From NCBI GenBank assembly GCA_018260755.1, contig JAGTWP010000053.1, positions 1 through 8,845 on the forward strand: a stretch of 8,845 nt of DNA, given 5' to 3'. A program made the translations under genes and the position numbers. This document shows, in pieces, positions 2,516 to 8,460 of this stretch (its first letter is position 1; the number at the start of each line of letters is the position of its first letter). This stretch comes from Candidatus Altarchaeum sp. (GTDB taxonomy: Archaea > Altiarchaeota > Altiarchaeia > Altiarchaeales > Altiarchaeaceae). The notes below the pieces were generated by a model. That model did no database searches. It was not told where the DNA came from and saw only the letters and a list, made by a program, of their open reading frames with translations.

Positions 2516-3768
2516 AAATTGAAAATATTATAAGAAACCAAATGTGTTGCGGTTGCGGAACCTGTGCAGGAATTTGTCCAAAAGAAGCAATAGAAATGAA
2601 AATAAATGAAAGAGGATTTTATGTACCTTTCATAGATAAGAAAAAATGTACTGCTTGTGATATGTGCAACAAAGTTTGCCCGCAAGTTAATAAAATATCT
2701 GATTTTAGTAAGTTAAATGAATTTGTATTTGAAAAAATACCCGATAAAGTTATTGGAAATTATGTAAATTGTTATACGGGATATTCTACTGATGAAAATT
2801 TGAGATTTGAAGCATCGTCCGGAGGAATGGTGACACAAATTTTAATTTCTGCATTAGAAGAAGGAATTATTAATGGAGTGCTTGTAACGAGAATGAAAAA
2901 AGACGATCCTTTGATTTCAGAACCATTTATAGCAAGAACAAAAGAAGAAATATTGTCTGCAATGGGTTCCAAGTATTGTCCAGTCCCAGCAAACATTATG
3001 TTAAAGGAGATAATGAAGTCAAAAGATGGCGATAAATTTGCTATTGTTGGACTGCCTTGTCACATTATAGGAATAAGAAATGTGGAAATGTTAATTCCAA
3101 AATTAAAAGAAAAAATAGTATTGCACTGTGGAATATTTTGTGGAGAGACAAGATCATTTATAGGAACAGAATTCTTACTTAAAAAGAATAACCTCAAAAA
3201 AGAAGATGTTATTTCTATAAAATATAGGGGGAAAGGATGGCCAGGATATTTGCAAATCAAAACAAGAAGTATATTGAATAAAATTATTTTATCATCTTAT
3301 TATTATTATGGTGGGTTATTCGGAATGTTTTTCAAAAACAATGCTTGCCTTTCATGTAACGATTATTCTAATGAATTTGCGGATATTTCATTTGGTGATG
3401 CTTGGAGAATAGAAAAAGAATATACAAACGGAACTTCCCTGATAGTTACAAGAACAAAATTTGTAGATGAAGTATTAAATAAATTTTATTCAGAAAAGAA
3501 GGTATTTATAAAAAAATTGGATATTGATCAATTTATATCTTCACATACACATATAACCTTTAAGAAAAAATTACCTGTAAAAATCAGTAAAATTTTTCAA
3601 TATAAAAAAAGCGAACTTATGGAGGTTTTTTGTTCATTTCCTTTTTTGAATCATTTTTCTACCCATCCAAATAAAACTATAAGAGAAATACTTATCCAAT
3701 TTTTAGATTTGCTGATTTTAATTCAATCAAAATTAATAAATATGGTAAAATGGTTCATAAAAAAATAA
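2512..3768 (+). CDS. FrhB-like protein (F420 hydrogenase/dehydrogenase beta family) with 2[4Fe-4S] ferredoxin domain
   Basis: A 418-residue soluble protein. The N-terminus is a bacterial-type ferredoxin with two complete [4Fe-4S] motifs: C12-x2-C15-x2-C18-x3-C22-P and C46-x2-C49-x2-C52-x3-C56-P. The rest matches the FrhB/FdhB-like flavin family: EASSGG (100-105), GSKYCP (152-157), VGLPCH (179-184), HCGIFCGE (205-212), YRGKGWPG (238-245), and C279-x2-C282 leading into ADISFGDAW (290-298). In methanogens FrhB binds FAD and [4Fe-4S] clusters and passes electrons to F420. Relatives of this fused form are common in exopolysaccharide clusters, often beside pyruvyl transferases, where their reaction is not established. 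A redox step in sugar or lipid-carrier processing is inference. The ATG overlaps the previous stop (ATGA) and the TAA shares its last A with the next ATG. There is no Shine-Dalgarno motif, so translation probably depends on coupling. Confidence 0.9.
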   Translation: MKIENIIRNQMCCGCGTCAGICPKEAIEMKINERGFYVPFIDKKKCTACDMCNKVCPQVNKISDFSKLNEFVFEKIPDKVIGNYVNCYTGYSTDENLRFEASSGGMVTQILISALEEGIINGVLVTRMKKDDPLISEPFIARTKEEILSAMGSKYCPVPANIMLKEIMKSKDGDKFAIVGLPCHIIGIRNVEMLIPKLKEKIVLHCGIFCGETRSFIGTEFLLKKNNLKKEDVISIKYRGKGWPGYLQIKTRSILNKIILSSYYYYGGLFGMFFKNNACLSCNDYSNEFADISFGDAWRIEKEYTNGTSLIVTRTKFVDEVLNKFYSEKKVFIKKLDIDQFISSHTHITFKKKLPVKISKIFQYKKSELMEVFCSFPFLNHFSTHPNKTIREILIQFLDLLILIQSKLINMVKWFIKK

Positions 3769-5107
3769 TGAATAAAAAAAATATATTGTTGCTCGGCACA
3801 AATCCTTTTGCTTTAAATAGAGGATGTACAGCAATGTGTATGTCATCTATTGAAATAATAAAAAAATATCTTCCAGAATCATTGCTTACTATTGGTGGTT
3901 ATTCACTAGAATATGGGGATCCAAATGCATCATTATATGTGCAAAAATATGGAAATCGTCAAGACATTAAGATAGATGTATCTAATGTATCTAAGAACGG
4001 CATGTTTGATAAAATTAAAAAAATAAAAAAATACATCCTTGTAATTAGTAGTCTGATAAAACTAAATTTTGCAGTTGATTTATGTTTATTGTGGAGATTT
4101 TTTAAGTATTTTGGAATTGACACAAGTAAAATTTTCTGCAAAAATAAAATATTCAAACAATTTTATAACACCGATATTATTGTAGACTTAAAATGGGGCG
4201 ATCAATTTACAGATATTTATGGCCTATTTAATACATTTGTATGGTTTCACGAATCTATAATTCCAATACTTTTAAATAAACCATACATCCTTTTTCCACA
4301 AACAATAGGCCCTTTCAAAAACAGATTTATATATTTCCTTGCTAAATTTATATTAGATAGAACAAAGATAATTATAGTGCGAGAGAGAAAAAGTGAAAAA
4401 TATATTTTTAAGATGGGAGTAGATCGTAAGAAAATATTCTTAATACCCGATACTGCATTTTATTTAGATCCGATTGCATCGGAAGATGTGGATATTATAC
4501 TAAATAAAGAAAATGTATGTGTTGATCCAAATTCTACAAGGATTGGAATTACCTTGAGGTATGTTGGAACAGCCGGACAGGATAAATTAACACACGAAAA
4601 TTATATTAAAATTATGGTTCAAATTGCAGAATATATGCAAAAAAGTATGGTTGTGCTATTTTACTTATTCCTCATGACGGAGTAGAAACTTCAAAACGAG
4701 TTTATGAAGAATTTCTCAACAAGATAGGAAATAAAAAAAATATATTCTATTTAAAAAACAAGGATTATTCAACGGAAGAATTGCGAGGGATTATAGGAAA
4801 ATGCGATATGCTTATAAGTTCTTATATGCATGCTAATGTAGCAGCTTTATCAATGCATGTTCCAACGATAAACTTTGCATATAGTTATAAAGCAATAGGT
4901 GTATTCGGAGTTTTAGGATTAGAAAAATATGTGTTAAATTTAAAAGATTTAACTTATGAAAAAACAATTTCTGCAATCGAAGAAATAGGGAGCAATCGAG
5001 AAAAAATAAGGAAAGAATTAGAAGCAAGAATGCAGGAAGTAAAAAAACAAGTCATGTTTGCAGGTGAATTGGTTAAGAAAGTTTTAGACGAGCAAGAATC
5101 CATATAA
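3768..5107 (+). CDS. Polysaccharide pyruvyl transferase family protein, interrupted by a frameshift
   Basis: This family transfers pyruvate from phosphoenolpyruvate to a sugar of a surface glycan as a ketal, adding negative charge. As given, the gene is in two frames: 3768-4685 and a frame open from 4610 to 5107. Adding one A to the six-A run at 4639-4644 restores a 446-residue protein. Family marks lie on both sides of the break: an N-terminal NILLLG strand (5-10), DIIVDLKWGD (136-145), FPQTIGPF (176-183), VRE (204-206), IPDTAFYLDP (226-235), then SSYMHANVAALSMHVPTINFAYSYKA (about 351-375 in the repaired protein). In the last motif the residue two before His355 is Tyr353, where the family normally has Arg. 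ATG 3768 is preferred over the in-frame ATG at 3750 because it forms a TAATG junction with the previous stop and begins just before the first beta strand. Either a sequencing indel or real inactivation is possible. The 3' end overlaps the convergent flippase by 35 bases. Confidence 0.85.
4639..4645 (+). other. Frameshift site in the pyruvyl transferase gene (A6 run followed by G)
   Basis: The upstream frame reads CAA AAA AGT and stops at TAG 4683-4685. The downstream frame reads AAA AAG TAT and carries the conserved C-terminal half. One extra A gives CAA AAA AAG TAT GGT, joining the halves as EYMQKKYGCAILL without disturbing the family pattern. Although the bases spell A AAA AAG, the heptamer is in phase with the downstream frame, not the upstream one, so it is not a canonical -1 slippery site. 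No obvious downstream stem was seen. A homopolymer sequencing error or a single-base deletion is most likely. Confidence 0.85.
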
Positions 5108-6332
5108 TTCCAATTAGTTGCCCAATCAACCACCCATATCCAACACCCAACAATCCGAAATAAAACATAAGCAAGGTTCCAAATATTATTGCAGGTATTG
5201 TTATCAAAAAATTGAAGATTATTGTTTCTTTCATTTTCTTTTTTATAAGTAACTCAACTAAATAAATTTTATTTACTACAAAAAAGTAAACAGAAATTGT
5301 AAAGACGTACAACAAATCTAATGAATTTAAATATGCTTCTCCAAATAAAGAAAAAATAAATCTTCCAAATAAAAATACGCCAAAAATACTGATTGTAGCA
5401 ATTATTAATGAAGATTTTAGTCCTTTATTTCTCTTTTTTTTTATTTCATTCATATTATAAGAACCCTCTATAAAAAAAGACGTTATTGTTGACATAAGAA
5501 AAGTAGTAATTAGTGAAAATATTGTCCATGCAATAAAAAAATATGCAGTCATTTCTGCAGAGAGAATATTAAGTATAAATATCGGAAGCAGCAAACCAAA
5601 AAGCCCGGAAGCAATTGATGAAAAATAATTTGTAAGGATATAATTAAAATTTTGCTTTATAATATCAAAATTTATATTCAATTTGAAATTTATTAATCTT
5701 GCTTTGTATAAAAGAAATAAAGAAATAAAAACACCTAATAATATTCCAATTTCGGTAGAATAGAAAATTCCCATATACAAAAAAGAAACAAATAAAGGCA
5801 ATAGAATGATTTTTCCGACATTTATTGATATATTTCCTATAAGGATGTATTTTGTCCTGTTGAATGCCATGAATATTCCGTTAAAAAGTGCAGCTACCGT
5901 AGAAAAAATTGAAAACAAAATAAAAATAAATCCATAAAACAAATTTTCTTTTAAGAAAATTAATTTTGAAGAAAAAATCTCTATAAAAGACACAAAAATA
6001 AAAGACATAATTAATACCATAAAACAACTTATCATAAGAAAGGAAAATACTAATTTATTTTTATCTAATGAGGATGCAGAAGGAACAAGTTTTATTAGTA
6101 CATTGCTAAATCCACTAGTCATAGAAAATAAGATTATCAAACTTATTGCAGAAAACATTGCAGAATATATTCCTACATCATATGATGAATAAAAGTGAGT
6201 TGCTATAATTAAAAATATAAAACCAAATAATCCGCTAACAATATTGGAAAGCATCAGATAAAATGAATTTTTATACAAATTATCAGCATAAAGACCTTTT
6301 ATAATTTTTTTATAATTTTCAATTGTTTTCAT
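5073..6332 (-). CDS. Oligosaccharide flippase family membrane protein (Wzx-like, MOP superfamily)
   Basis: A 419-residue protein made almost entirely of hydrophobic helices; I count about 12, at roughly 22-42, 53-80, 95-118, 128-155, 162-187, 192-210, 230-252, 262-285, 305-330, 335-358, 370-392 and 395-415. The N-terminal arrangement, an amphipathic lead-in then NSFYLMLSNIVSGLFGFIF (22-40), is typical of Wzx/polysaccharide-synthesis transporters. So are the loop SYDVGIYSA (50-58) and the mid-protein FGEAYLNSLDLL (330-341). Such proteins flip lipid-linked oligosaccharides across the membrane and are usually 400-480 residues long, so this looks complete. It is transcribed opposite to the glycan genes. 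Its stop lies 35 bases inside the 3' end of the pyruvyl transferase gene, and its start faces the surface-protein gene across a short divergent promoter region. Substrate cannot be told from sequence, but the context points to the glycan built by the adjacent operon. Confidence 0.85.
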   Translation of the reverse strand: MKTIENYKKIIKGLYADNLYKNSFYLMLSNIVSGLFGFIFLIIATHFYSSYDVGIYSAMFSAISLIILFSMTSGFSNVLIKLVPSASSLDKNKLVFSFLMISCFMVLIMSFIFVSFIEIFSSKLIFLKENLFYGFIFILFSIFSTVAALFNGIFMAFNRTKYILIGNISINVGKIILLPLFVSFLYMGIFYSTEIGILLGVFISLFLLYKARLINFKLNINFDIIKQNFNYILTNYFSSIASGLFGLLLPIFILNILSAEMTAYFFIAWTIFSLITTFLMSTITSFFIEGSYNMNEIKKKRNKGLKSSLIIATISIFGVFLFGRFIFSLFGEAYLNSLDLLYVFTISVYFFVVNKIYLVELLIKKKMKETIIFNFLITIPAIIFGTLLMFYFGLLGVGYGWLIGQLIGIIWILARLKLS

Positions 6333-6402
6333 TCTAATTTATTTTTGTTTTTAATCTTTAAGGATTAATTTATAATTTTAAATTTAGTTTATAATTTATA
6401 AT
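6333..6402. promoter_or_regulatory. Divergent promoter region between flippase and surface-protein genes
   Basis: Seventy bases, nearly all A and T, separate two divergent starts. TTTATAATTT occurs at 6369-6378 and again at 6388-6397, 19 bases apart. On the plus strand the first copy predicts a transcription start near 6399, making the surface-protein mRNA essentially leaderless at ATG 6403. On the minus strand the same element reads AAATTATAAA and could serve the flippase, leaving a leader of about 15 bases. The second copy may be a TATA decoy or operator, but base composition alone can produce such repeats. Neither gene has a Shine-Dalgarno motif. Confidence 0.5.
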
Positions 6403-8460
6403 ATGTCTAAAAATTTATCAAAAATAGGAGCAGTATTTTTTGTAGCAACAGCCATTATATTATTGTTATTTTATGGAAATCCAAATCCTCCGCCGATTAT
6501 TGAAGAAGGAAATTTAAAATTAGTAGCATATAAAGATGTCAAAATGTCAAATATTGATTTCTTTAAAAATAATAAGTGTATATTATCCTTTAATCCATGG
6601 GAAATGCAAATAAAATACAAAGGAGAGTCTAAACGAATTTTTGGATACGCAAGTAACATAACCTTATTCAACGGAAATGATTCAAAGAAAGTAGAGGTTA
6701 AAGGCAATAAAATGATAATAACCTACTTCAACGATAAAAAAGATCCGAAAGAAGTAAGTATTATTTTTGTGCTGAACAACAACACACTGGAATGTAGAAT
6801 TAACGGAAACTTTTCAGAGCAGGAAAAATTTAAAGGGATAATATATGGTTATTATTTTAACAAAAACTATGAGGAATTTATAACTCCTTCTGATGATGTA
6901 ATAAAGAACGAAGGAAATGAAAGTTATACATGGCAAGGAGGAATTCAGATTCCAAAAACAAGCAAAAATTATCAGTTAATGCTTTCAAATGAAACAATGC
7001 TGAATGTAAGTGGGAACTTTACAAGTATTTTGAATTCACCAAGATGGCGGGTATCTTATTTTTATGTTAATCCGAATGAAACCCTGACAATCAAAGTTCA
7101 AGAACCGATAGAGTTAAATTTAACAAAGACAGGATTGTCATTAAGAACAGGTGAAAATTTAAATGCACCTTCAATTGGATTTTACAATGGAAGCAAAAAG
7201 GTCTTAATTTTTAATTCAGGGGAAATGCAGATAAAATACAAAGGAATATCTAAAAGGGTTTTTTCTTATTCTTCAAATGCAACATTATTTAATGGAAGTG
7301 ATTCAAAAATTACAAAGATTGATGGAAATAAGCTTATAGTTGCTTATTTCAATAAGGCAAAGGATCCAAGCGAGATACGACTTATCTTTGAGTTGAACAA
7401 TGATGCAGCAAATTACAAAATTGAAGGTAATTTTTTAAATCCGGAGAATTTTGAACAAATAAATTATGGATATATATTTGGAAATTTAAAATACAATAAG
7501 ATTATAACTCCTTCCGATGATTTAATAAAGAACGAAGGAATCGAAAGTTATACATGGCAAGCAGGAATTCAGATTCCAAAAACAAGCAAAAATTATCAGT
7601 TAATGCTTTCAAATGAAACGATGCTGAATGTAAGTGGGAACTTTACAAGTATTTGGAATTCACCGAGATGGCGGGTCTCTTATTTTTATGTTAATCCGAA
7701 TGAAACCCTTACAATCAAAGTTCAGGAACCGATAGAGTTAAATTTCCCCCAAAACTATCCCCTAACCGTCTCAACCTCTTCAACAATTTCCGATGGAATC
7801 CATATTTATAAAAACGGAACTCAAATTTTATATCTATCTCCATGGGAAACAGTATTTAAACACGATGGAAGAACCCAAAGATTACTTAACACAAAAAAGT
7901 ATGATGAAGATTATCCAAACAAATTAATCTTTAATTACAACAATTCTGAAAAAATAACAAAAATTTCAGAAATTAAAAATGCTAATAATAAAACAATCGG
8001 TTATGAAATGAATGTTTCATGGGTTAATGAAAGCAAAGAGATTCAGGAGATTGGATTTAACATAAAGAACTATGAAAATAAAAGTTATGCTGAAATCAAA
8101 TACTTTTACAGAACAAAAAATGTTTATGTGAATTTAGAACCATTATTCTATGGAATATCTTTTGATAAAAATAAGTTTAAATATGTAAAGGTATTAAGAA
8201 ATAGTGAAATAACCGGAAATATAAAAAGAAATCCAATAGAAAACGAAAAGAAGGGCTATCTTAATTTTGCAGGATGCGAACAAGGAAAATGCGATAAAAT
8301 AATATCGGATCAGTGGTTTATTGATAAAGGAAATAAAACACCTGAAAAGGCAGTTGAAATCAAAGGAAATTTCAGCAGAATAGAGCATTACTTTACATAC
8401 AATCTTGTCCGATTTTACATGAATGATTTTAAAGAACCGTTAAAAATTTATGTAGAATAA
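6403..8460 (+). CDS. Signal-anchored surface protein with three related modules, sequon-rich
   Basis: A 685-residue protein of unknown function. A short basic N-terminus and hydrophobic stretch (about 8-24) followed by a proline-rich linker (NPNPPP, 26-31) look like an uncleaved signal anchor, placing the rest outside the cell. The exterior holds three related modules, about 45-240, 252-448 and 460-685. Each begins with a PWE/SGE-type strand (PWEMQIKYKG 65-74, SGEMQIKYKG 272-281, PWETVFKHDG 480-489) and ends with a GNF segment and a strand-rich tail. Modules 1 and 2 share 80 residues (160-239 and 368-447) with only four differences; the third is diverged and has a C625/C630 pair. About 25 N-X-S/T sequons fall in the exterior part, suggesting N-glycosylation. 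Strand-rich repeats suggest a beta-sandwich surface or adhesive role, but I recognise no named family and see no catalytic motif. Confidence 0.8.
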   Translation: MSKNLSKIGAVFFVATAIILLLFYGNPNPPPIIEEGNLKLVAYKDVKMSNIDFFKNNKCILSFNPWEMQIKYKGESKRIFGYASNITLFNGNDSKKVEVKGNKMIITYFNDKKDPKEVSIIFVLNNNTLECRINGNFSEQEKFKGIIYGYYFNKNYEEFITPSDDVIKNEGNESYTWQGGIQIPKTSKNYQLMLSNETMLNVSGNFTSILNSPRWRVSYFYVNPNETLTIKVQEPIELNLTKTGLSLRTGENLNAPSIGFYNGSKKVLIFNSGEMQIKYKGISKRVFSYSSNATLFNGSDSKITKIDGNKLIVAYFNKAKDPSEIRLIFELNNDAANYKIEGNFLNPENFEQINYGYIFGNLKYNKIITPSDDLIKNEGIESYTWQAGIQIPKTSKNYQLMLSNETMLNVSGNFTSIWNSPRWRVSYFYVNPNETLTIKVQEPIELNFPQNYPLTVSTSSTISDGIHIYKNGTQILYLSPWETVFKHDGRTQRLLNTKKYDEDYPNKLIFNYNNSEKITKISEIKNANNKTIGYEMNVSWVNESKEIQEIGFNIKNYENKSYAEIKYFYRTKNVYVNLEPLFYGISFDKNKFKYVKVLRNSEITGNIKRNPIENEKKGYLNFAGCEQGKCDKIISDQWFIDKGNKTPEKAVEIKGNFSRIEHYFTYNLVRFYMNDFKEPLKIYVE
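6880..7121 (+). repeat. Near-identical intragenic repeat, copy 1
   Basis: This 242-base block encodes residues 160-239 of the surface protein and matches 7504-7745 at an offset of 624 bases, in frame. I count 11 mismatches by eye, about 95% identity. The flanking module sequence to the left is clearly less similar, so the boundary is sharp. Confidence 0.9.
7504..7745 (+). repeat. Near-identical intragenic repeat, copy 2
   Basis: Partner of 6880-7121, encoding residues 368-447. Differences from copy 1 are six synonymous third-position changes and four amino acid changes (V165L, N172I, G179A, L210W in copy 1 numbering). The right edge coincides with a change to C-rich codons at the linker to the third module. 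Confidence 0.9.

Follow-up and report, generated by a model that had tools for sequence, protein, structure and literature searches.

Background

In methanogens, one domain of mtrA-1 and mtrA-2 has long been homogenised by conversion, whereas the adjoining part has not (PMC4632066). Tandem modules with near-identical DNA are also known from the Periscope Proteins of bacterial surfaces, and their number has been proposed to vary by intragenic recombination (PMC8201768). The hami of Altiarchaea are built from an S-layer-like protein, the hamus subunit being a 97-kDa Thr/Gly-rich protein with an S-layer-like N-terminus (PMC4460559). Viruses attach to the cells of Altiarchaeum (PMC8324899), and it has been suggested that they host an episymbiont (PMC6792436).

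Here I describe a gene for a predicted surface protein in a metagenome-assembled genome (MAG) of Candidatus Altarchaeum (1.32 Mb in 78 contigs, 85% complete). The window, the whole stretch of 8,845 nt that was analysed, is an entire contig of this assembly (G000:C9). The nearest parallel to the gene is the mtrA-1/mtrA-2 pair, as in both cases neighbouring copies in archaea share a domain that appears repeatedly converted in separate lineages, next to a part that stays distinct. However, mtrA-1 and mtrA-2 are two separate genes for a conserved enzyme, whereas the repeats described here lie within one surface-protein gene and the edges of the tract vary. The tandem surface modules with near-identical DNA also recall the Periscope Proteins, which one locus of a relative (C134 of HURL_140) resembles; those proteins occur in other phyla, though, and the window has two modules of which only part of one is homogenised. 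The mechanism is already known, and what is new here is the protein family in which concerted evolution is seen. A genus-specific, uncharacterised family of predicted surface proteins in the hook-bearing, biofilm-forming Altiarchaea would hereby join the cases of this process.

Genomes and loci compared

The source genome was compared with those of Candidatus Altarchaeum sp. HURL_140 (G003; EF-2 94% identical to that of the source), Altiarchaeales archaeon A3 (G001) and Ca. Altarchaeum CG2_30_32_3053 (G002; EF-2 of the latter two 87-88% identical). The loci examined were C72 and C134 of HURL_140, C7 and C20 of A3, and the locus of CG2_30_32_3053. Contigs of the relatives end inside repeats, which makes the module copy numbers there unsafe.

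Results and discussion

The gene (6403-8460, forward strand) encodes a protein of 685 aa with 26 N-glycosylation sequons (N-X-S/T). It starts with a signal/transmembrane segment (6403-6492), a conserved anchor with 89-93% nucleotide identity to HURL_140 C134 and A3 C20, which is followed by module 1 (6493-7122) and module 2 (7123-7746) of about 208 aa each, and by a terminal domain (7747-8460), a distant third module (hhalign 94.5%) with 84% amino acid identity to its counterpart in HURL_140 C134. Judging from these features, the product is a predicted membrane-anchored, sequon-rich protein, probably located at the cell surface. Searches of Pfam and NCBIfam gave nothing above the cut-off and no confident family, a sequence search of the PDB gave no significant match, and a fold search of the PDB gave no match at E <= 1e-3, from a poor model built on window sequences only (module pLDDT 55, with 57-84 in the front and mostly under 42 in the back; the full protein was predicted with pLDDT 31). 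A profile search found the family confined to Candidatus Altarchaeum (4 of 29 genomes of the class, 1 of 20 genera) with no homologs in the remaining 25 genomes, and a protein search found none outside the genus among 147 relatives. A peptide-pattern search of genome contigs also returned no homolog, but this is a weak test, which missed genomes known to hold the family as well. Within the libraries searched, the protein family is undescribed.

The protein shares with the hamus subunit and S-layer proteins a signal/membrane segment, glycosylation sites, a predicted beta-rich structure, the same genus and the presence of several homologous open reading frames per genome. However, nothing was found that links it to the hami, with which it was compared by description, and no S-layer family was matched in Pfam or NCBIfam.

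A repeat search of the window returned one family of 244 nt, located at 6878-7121 in module 1 and at 7502-7745 in module 2, with 95.1% identity and a spacing of 624. The fronts of the same modules (6493-6877, linker and body, and 7123-7501) are only 59.8% identical. This contrast is also seen at silent sites, as the fronts are saturated (pS 0.71-0.73 over 126 codons, dN 0.44), whereas the block has 7.0 differences in 49.3 synonymous sites (pS 0.14, dS 0.157, dN 0.026; Fisher test for front against back, p = 5e-10). The best single breakpoint is at 6878 (support 6878-6882, 4 nt; log-likelihood gain 58), and none of 20,000 shuffles of the polymorphic columns reached the observed block. The earlier note, made from the bare sequence, had placed the block at 6880-7121 and 7504-7745 with about 95% identity, which agrees with the present analysis to within 2 nt at its start and exactly at its end, and the synonymous comparison of the modules that it called for gave clearly unequal divergence, with a dS of 0.16 in the block beside the saturated front. 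Of the two abrupt edges it had described, the left one, at ITPSDD, is sharp indeed (6878-6882), but the right one is merely the module boundary: one copy is followed by the linker of module 2 and the other by the terminal domain, and the modules of the relatives likewise end at ...ELNL, before another module's linker or the terminal domain. As the right edge coincides with the end of the repeat unit, it needs no special event, and the left edge alone calls for an event within the module.

A back half that is simply far more constrained, with no recombination involved, is a most improbable explanation of this pattern. The back is somewhat better conserved between species (70% vs 57% nucleotide identity between module 1 of the source and HURL_140 C134), but silent differences fall along with the others (pS 0.14 vs 0.73), and the same region has a pS of about 0.3-0.7 between lineages. 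The silent sites reject constraint as the sole cause, barring strong selection at the RNA or DNA level on exactly this stretch.

An assembly chimera of strains or paralogs could be suspected in a MAG of this fragmentation and completeness, with related contigs ending inside repeats and with populations of Altiarchaeum that are reported to be strain-rich (PMC6792436). However, the longest exact run between the two block copies is only 57 bp, which makes a collapse of two copies during assembly unlikely, and similar patterns recur in assemblies made independently; I regard a chimera as very unlikely. A third copy of the block, which could have been the donor, was searched for in the 85% complete source genome and none was found, which likewise speaks against a chimera.

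The relatives show homogenised modules of their own. In HURL_140 C72 two modules are 100% identical across a stretch of 541 bp that ends at a scaffold gap; identity begins abruptly just before ILTFSPEV, and the first ~25 residues are unrelated. In A3 C7 the contig ends 109 nt into the shared stretch, over which modules 1 and 2 are 96% identical; identity begins at nearly the same place as in HURL_140 C72. For both blocks, 0 of 20,000 column shuffles reached the observed value. HURL_140 C134 carries a 642-bp unit five times without a difference, except at two bases where the last copy ends. In all three of these loci the homogenised stretch includes the front, and the left edge in the window differs from those in HURL_140 C72 and A3 C7. 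The five modules of HURL_140 C134 (L019 4660-8673) form one open frame of 1338 aa, a copy number which is unsafe and not to be trusted without long reads.

These blocks are specific to their lineages, in the comparison of related genomes that the earlier note had proposed as a check for concerted evolution. In the back part, dS is 0.16 between the two modules of the source and 0.43 between its module 1 and module 1 of A3 C7; similarly, it is 0.00 between the two modules of HURL_140 C72 and 0.6 between this locus and CG2_30_32_3053. Paralogs within a genome are closer than orthologs at silent sites too, which is the pattern expected under concerted evolution, here for the back part.

The linkers show a different history. 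Across species, the linkers of module 2 share a mean nucleotide identity of 65% and those of module 1 of 73%, against 42% between the two kinds, and the grouping of linkers by module position ranks first of 56 labelings. As the module 2 linkers, the ~25 first residues, are alike across species, the two modules predate the split of the lineages and module 2 is old. The suggestion of a recent copy consequently fails for module 2 as a whole, and a recent duplication of the entire module is ruled out by this orthology. Module bodies group by genome and linkers by module position, so that in module 2 the linker is older than the body it precedes; the flanking linkers thus keep their positional orthology, as concerted evolution by gene conversion requires. 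The three loci offer a clear comparison, in which linkers track species history and module bodies track the genome, and the divergence of such repeats is no measure of how long ago they were duplicated.

Module 1 of the source matches module 1 of A3 C7 throughout (77% nucleotide identity in the front and 84% in the back), whereas for module 2 of the source the match is confined to the back (81%, against 60% in the front), which makes module 2 a mosaic. Phylogenetic trees agree, as the front tree joins module 1 of the source with module 1 of A3 C7 (93/94) and the back tree joins the two modules of the source (88/90), although AU tests on these short segments gave p values of 0.073 and 0.107, above 0.05. 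The silent divergence between the two module 1 sequences itself differs between front and back (30/52 vs 16/48, p 0.017), suggesting further recombination.

Of the 12 differences within the block, the outgroup base is found in module 1 at 10, in module 2 at one and in neither at one. This excess of changes on the side of module 2 (10:1) points to module 1 (6878-7121) as the probable donor and module 2 (7502-7745) as the probable recipient, but it is larger than an equal clock would predict. Part of the tract may therefore be unconverted, and the differences at 6891, 6898, 6917, 6918 and 6938, close to the left edge, may have survived from the old module 2. Alternatively, constraint on module 2 may be weaker, or the sequence may have been donated by a relative of module 1 instead of module 1 itself.

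Taken as a whole, it is probable that the back ~244 bp of module 2 were overwritten from module 1 by intragenic recombination, and that such overwriting recurs. A membrane-anchored surface protein would have held two modules of long standing in tandem beside a third, diverged one, and the back part of module 1 would then have been copied over that of module 2 by homologous recombination within the gene, either as gene conversion or as an equivalent pair of unequal exchanges. Recurring in each lineage with varying left ends, such events would make the modules evolve in concert. My inference of conversion rather than crossover is tentative. Gene conversion or homogenising exchange, as the earlier note had proposed, is supported as a class of process, with which the blocks in the relatives agree.

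An array that grew to at least three modules by unequal crossing over and then shrank, leaving module 2 with a back of the module 1 type, would yield the same end product as conversion. The number of modules does vary among loci (one in CG2_30_32_3053, two in the source and five in HURL_140 C134, counted in short-read assemblies and across loci and species), and the five exact copies in the latter could be the trace of such growth. However, this route requires two exchanges and a return to two modules, and the five-copy array is untrustworthy in a short-read MAG; I consider it unlikely.

The neighbourhood of the gene bears on a further alternative. Upstream, on the reverse strand, lies a flippase gene of the polysaccharide synthesis (MOP) type (5073-6332), which is conserved next to the gene, in the same divergent orientation, in HURL_140 C134, A3 C20 and A3 C7; it is 85-86% identical to those of HURL_140 C134 and A3 C20. 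Between the source and HURL_140 C134, pS is 0.18-0.31 in the flippase and 0.19 in the signal segment, but 0.81 in the module front, 0.65 in the module back and 0.36-0.64 in the terminal domain. Between the source and A3 C20, the corresponding values are 0.16-0.27 in the flippase, 0.14 in the signal segment and 0.83 in the modules (37 codons). Along the locus, silent divergence from HURL_140 is low in 5073-6492, high in the modules and intermediate in the terminal domain (6499-8457). Fast protein evolution would hardly account for saturated silent sites in the modules beside flanks of this kind; the pattern suggests, from few genomes, that old module alleles were exchanged or kept between lineages.

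The modules are a divergent island between conserved anchors, and foreign module sequence would therefore enter or persist at the locus. This keeps alive the explanation that module 1 was recently duplicated and the front of one copy then replaced by that of a diverged allele. However, the linker of module 2 is the orthologous one, so that an import must have carried the linker along in register, and no sequence was found from which the module 2 body could have come; such an import seems rather improbable. The same island is the basis for a wider and equally doubtful reading, in which this glycan-cluster and surface-protein locus is a diversification system: modules from a divergent pool would be inserted between two conserved anchors, one formed by the flippase with the signal segment and the other by the terminal domain, and conversion would then spread them along the array. 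If true, a non-pathogenic archaeon would undergo changes that resemble antigenic variation and are directed against viruses or episymbionts.

With overwriting by intragenic recombination as the preferred explanation, the front in the window is the old and unconverted part, in module 2 including the body behind the linker. Its orthologs have a dN of 0.164 and a dS of 1.13 (module 1 of the source vs that of A3 C7), and of 0.114 and 0.57 (CG2_30_32_3053 vs module 1 of HURL_140 C72); the resulting dN/dS of about 0.15-0.2, from pairwise comparisons only, indicates purifying selection. The earlier note's idea of a diversifying front beside a homogenised back finds no support in these values, and the front is itself homogenised in relatives. 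Antigenic variation would entail diversifying selection on the variable part, whereas the pairwise ratios are low, and silent donor cassettes, of which no further block copy was seen in the 85% complete genome. With viruses that attach to the cells and a proposed episymbiont, selection on surface modules would be plausible, and the module region is a candidate for a variable contact site for viruses or symbionts.

Some other observations concern the family and its surroundings. On contig C162 of A3 (L022 2049-6187) there are two disrupted remnants of the terminal domain with other genes between them, and a third fragment at the contig end, so that the family also decays. In the window, a gene for a WcaK/CsaB-like polysaccharide pyruvyl transferase (3750-5107) is split into two frames (3750-4685 and 4781-5107), which may reflect either a genuine frameshift or a mistake in the assembly; an intact relative of 431 aa is present in A3 C20. 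For a 760-aa multi-pass membrane protein (233-2515), without a match in Pfam or NCBIfam, each of the Altarchaeum loci compared contains a counterpart, but the identity is only 26-31%, as against the 85-86% of the flippase in HURL_140 C134 and A3 C20.
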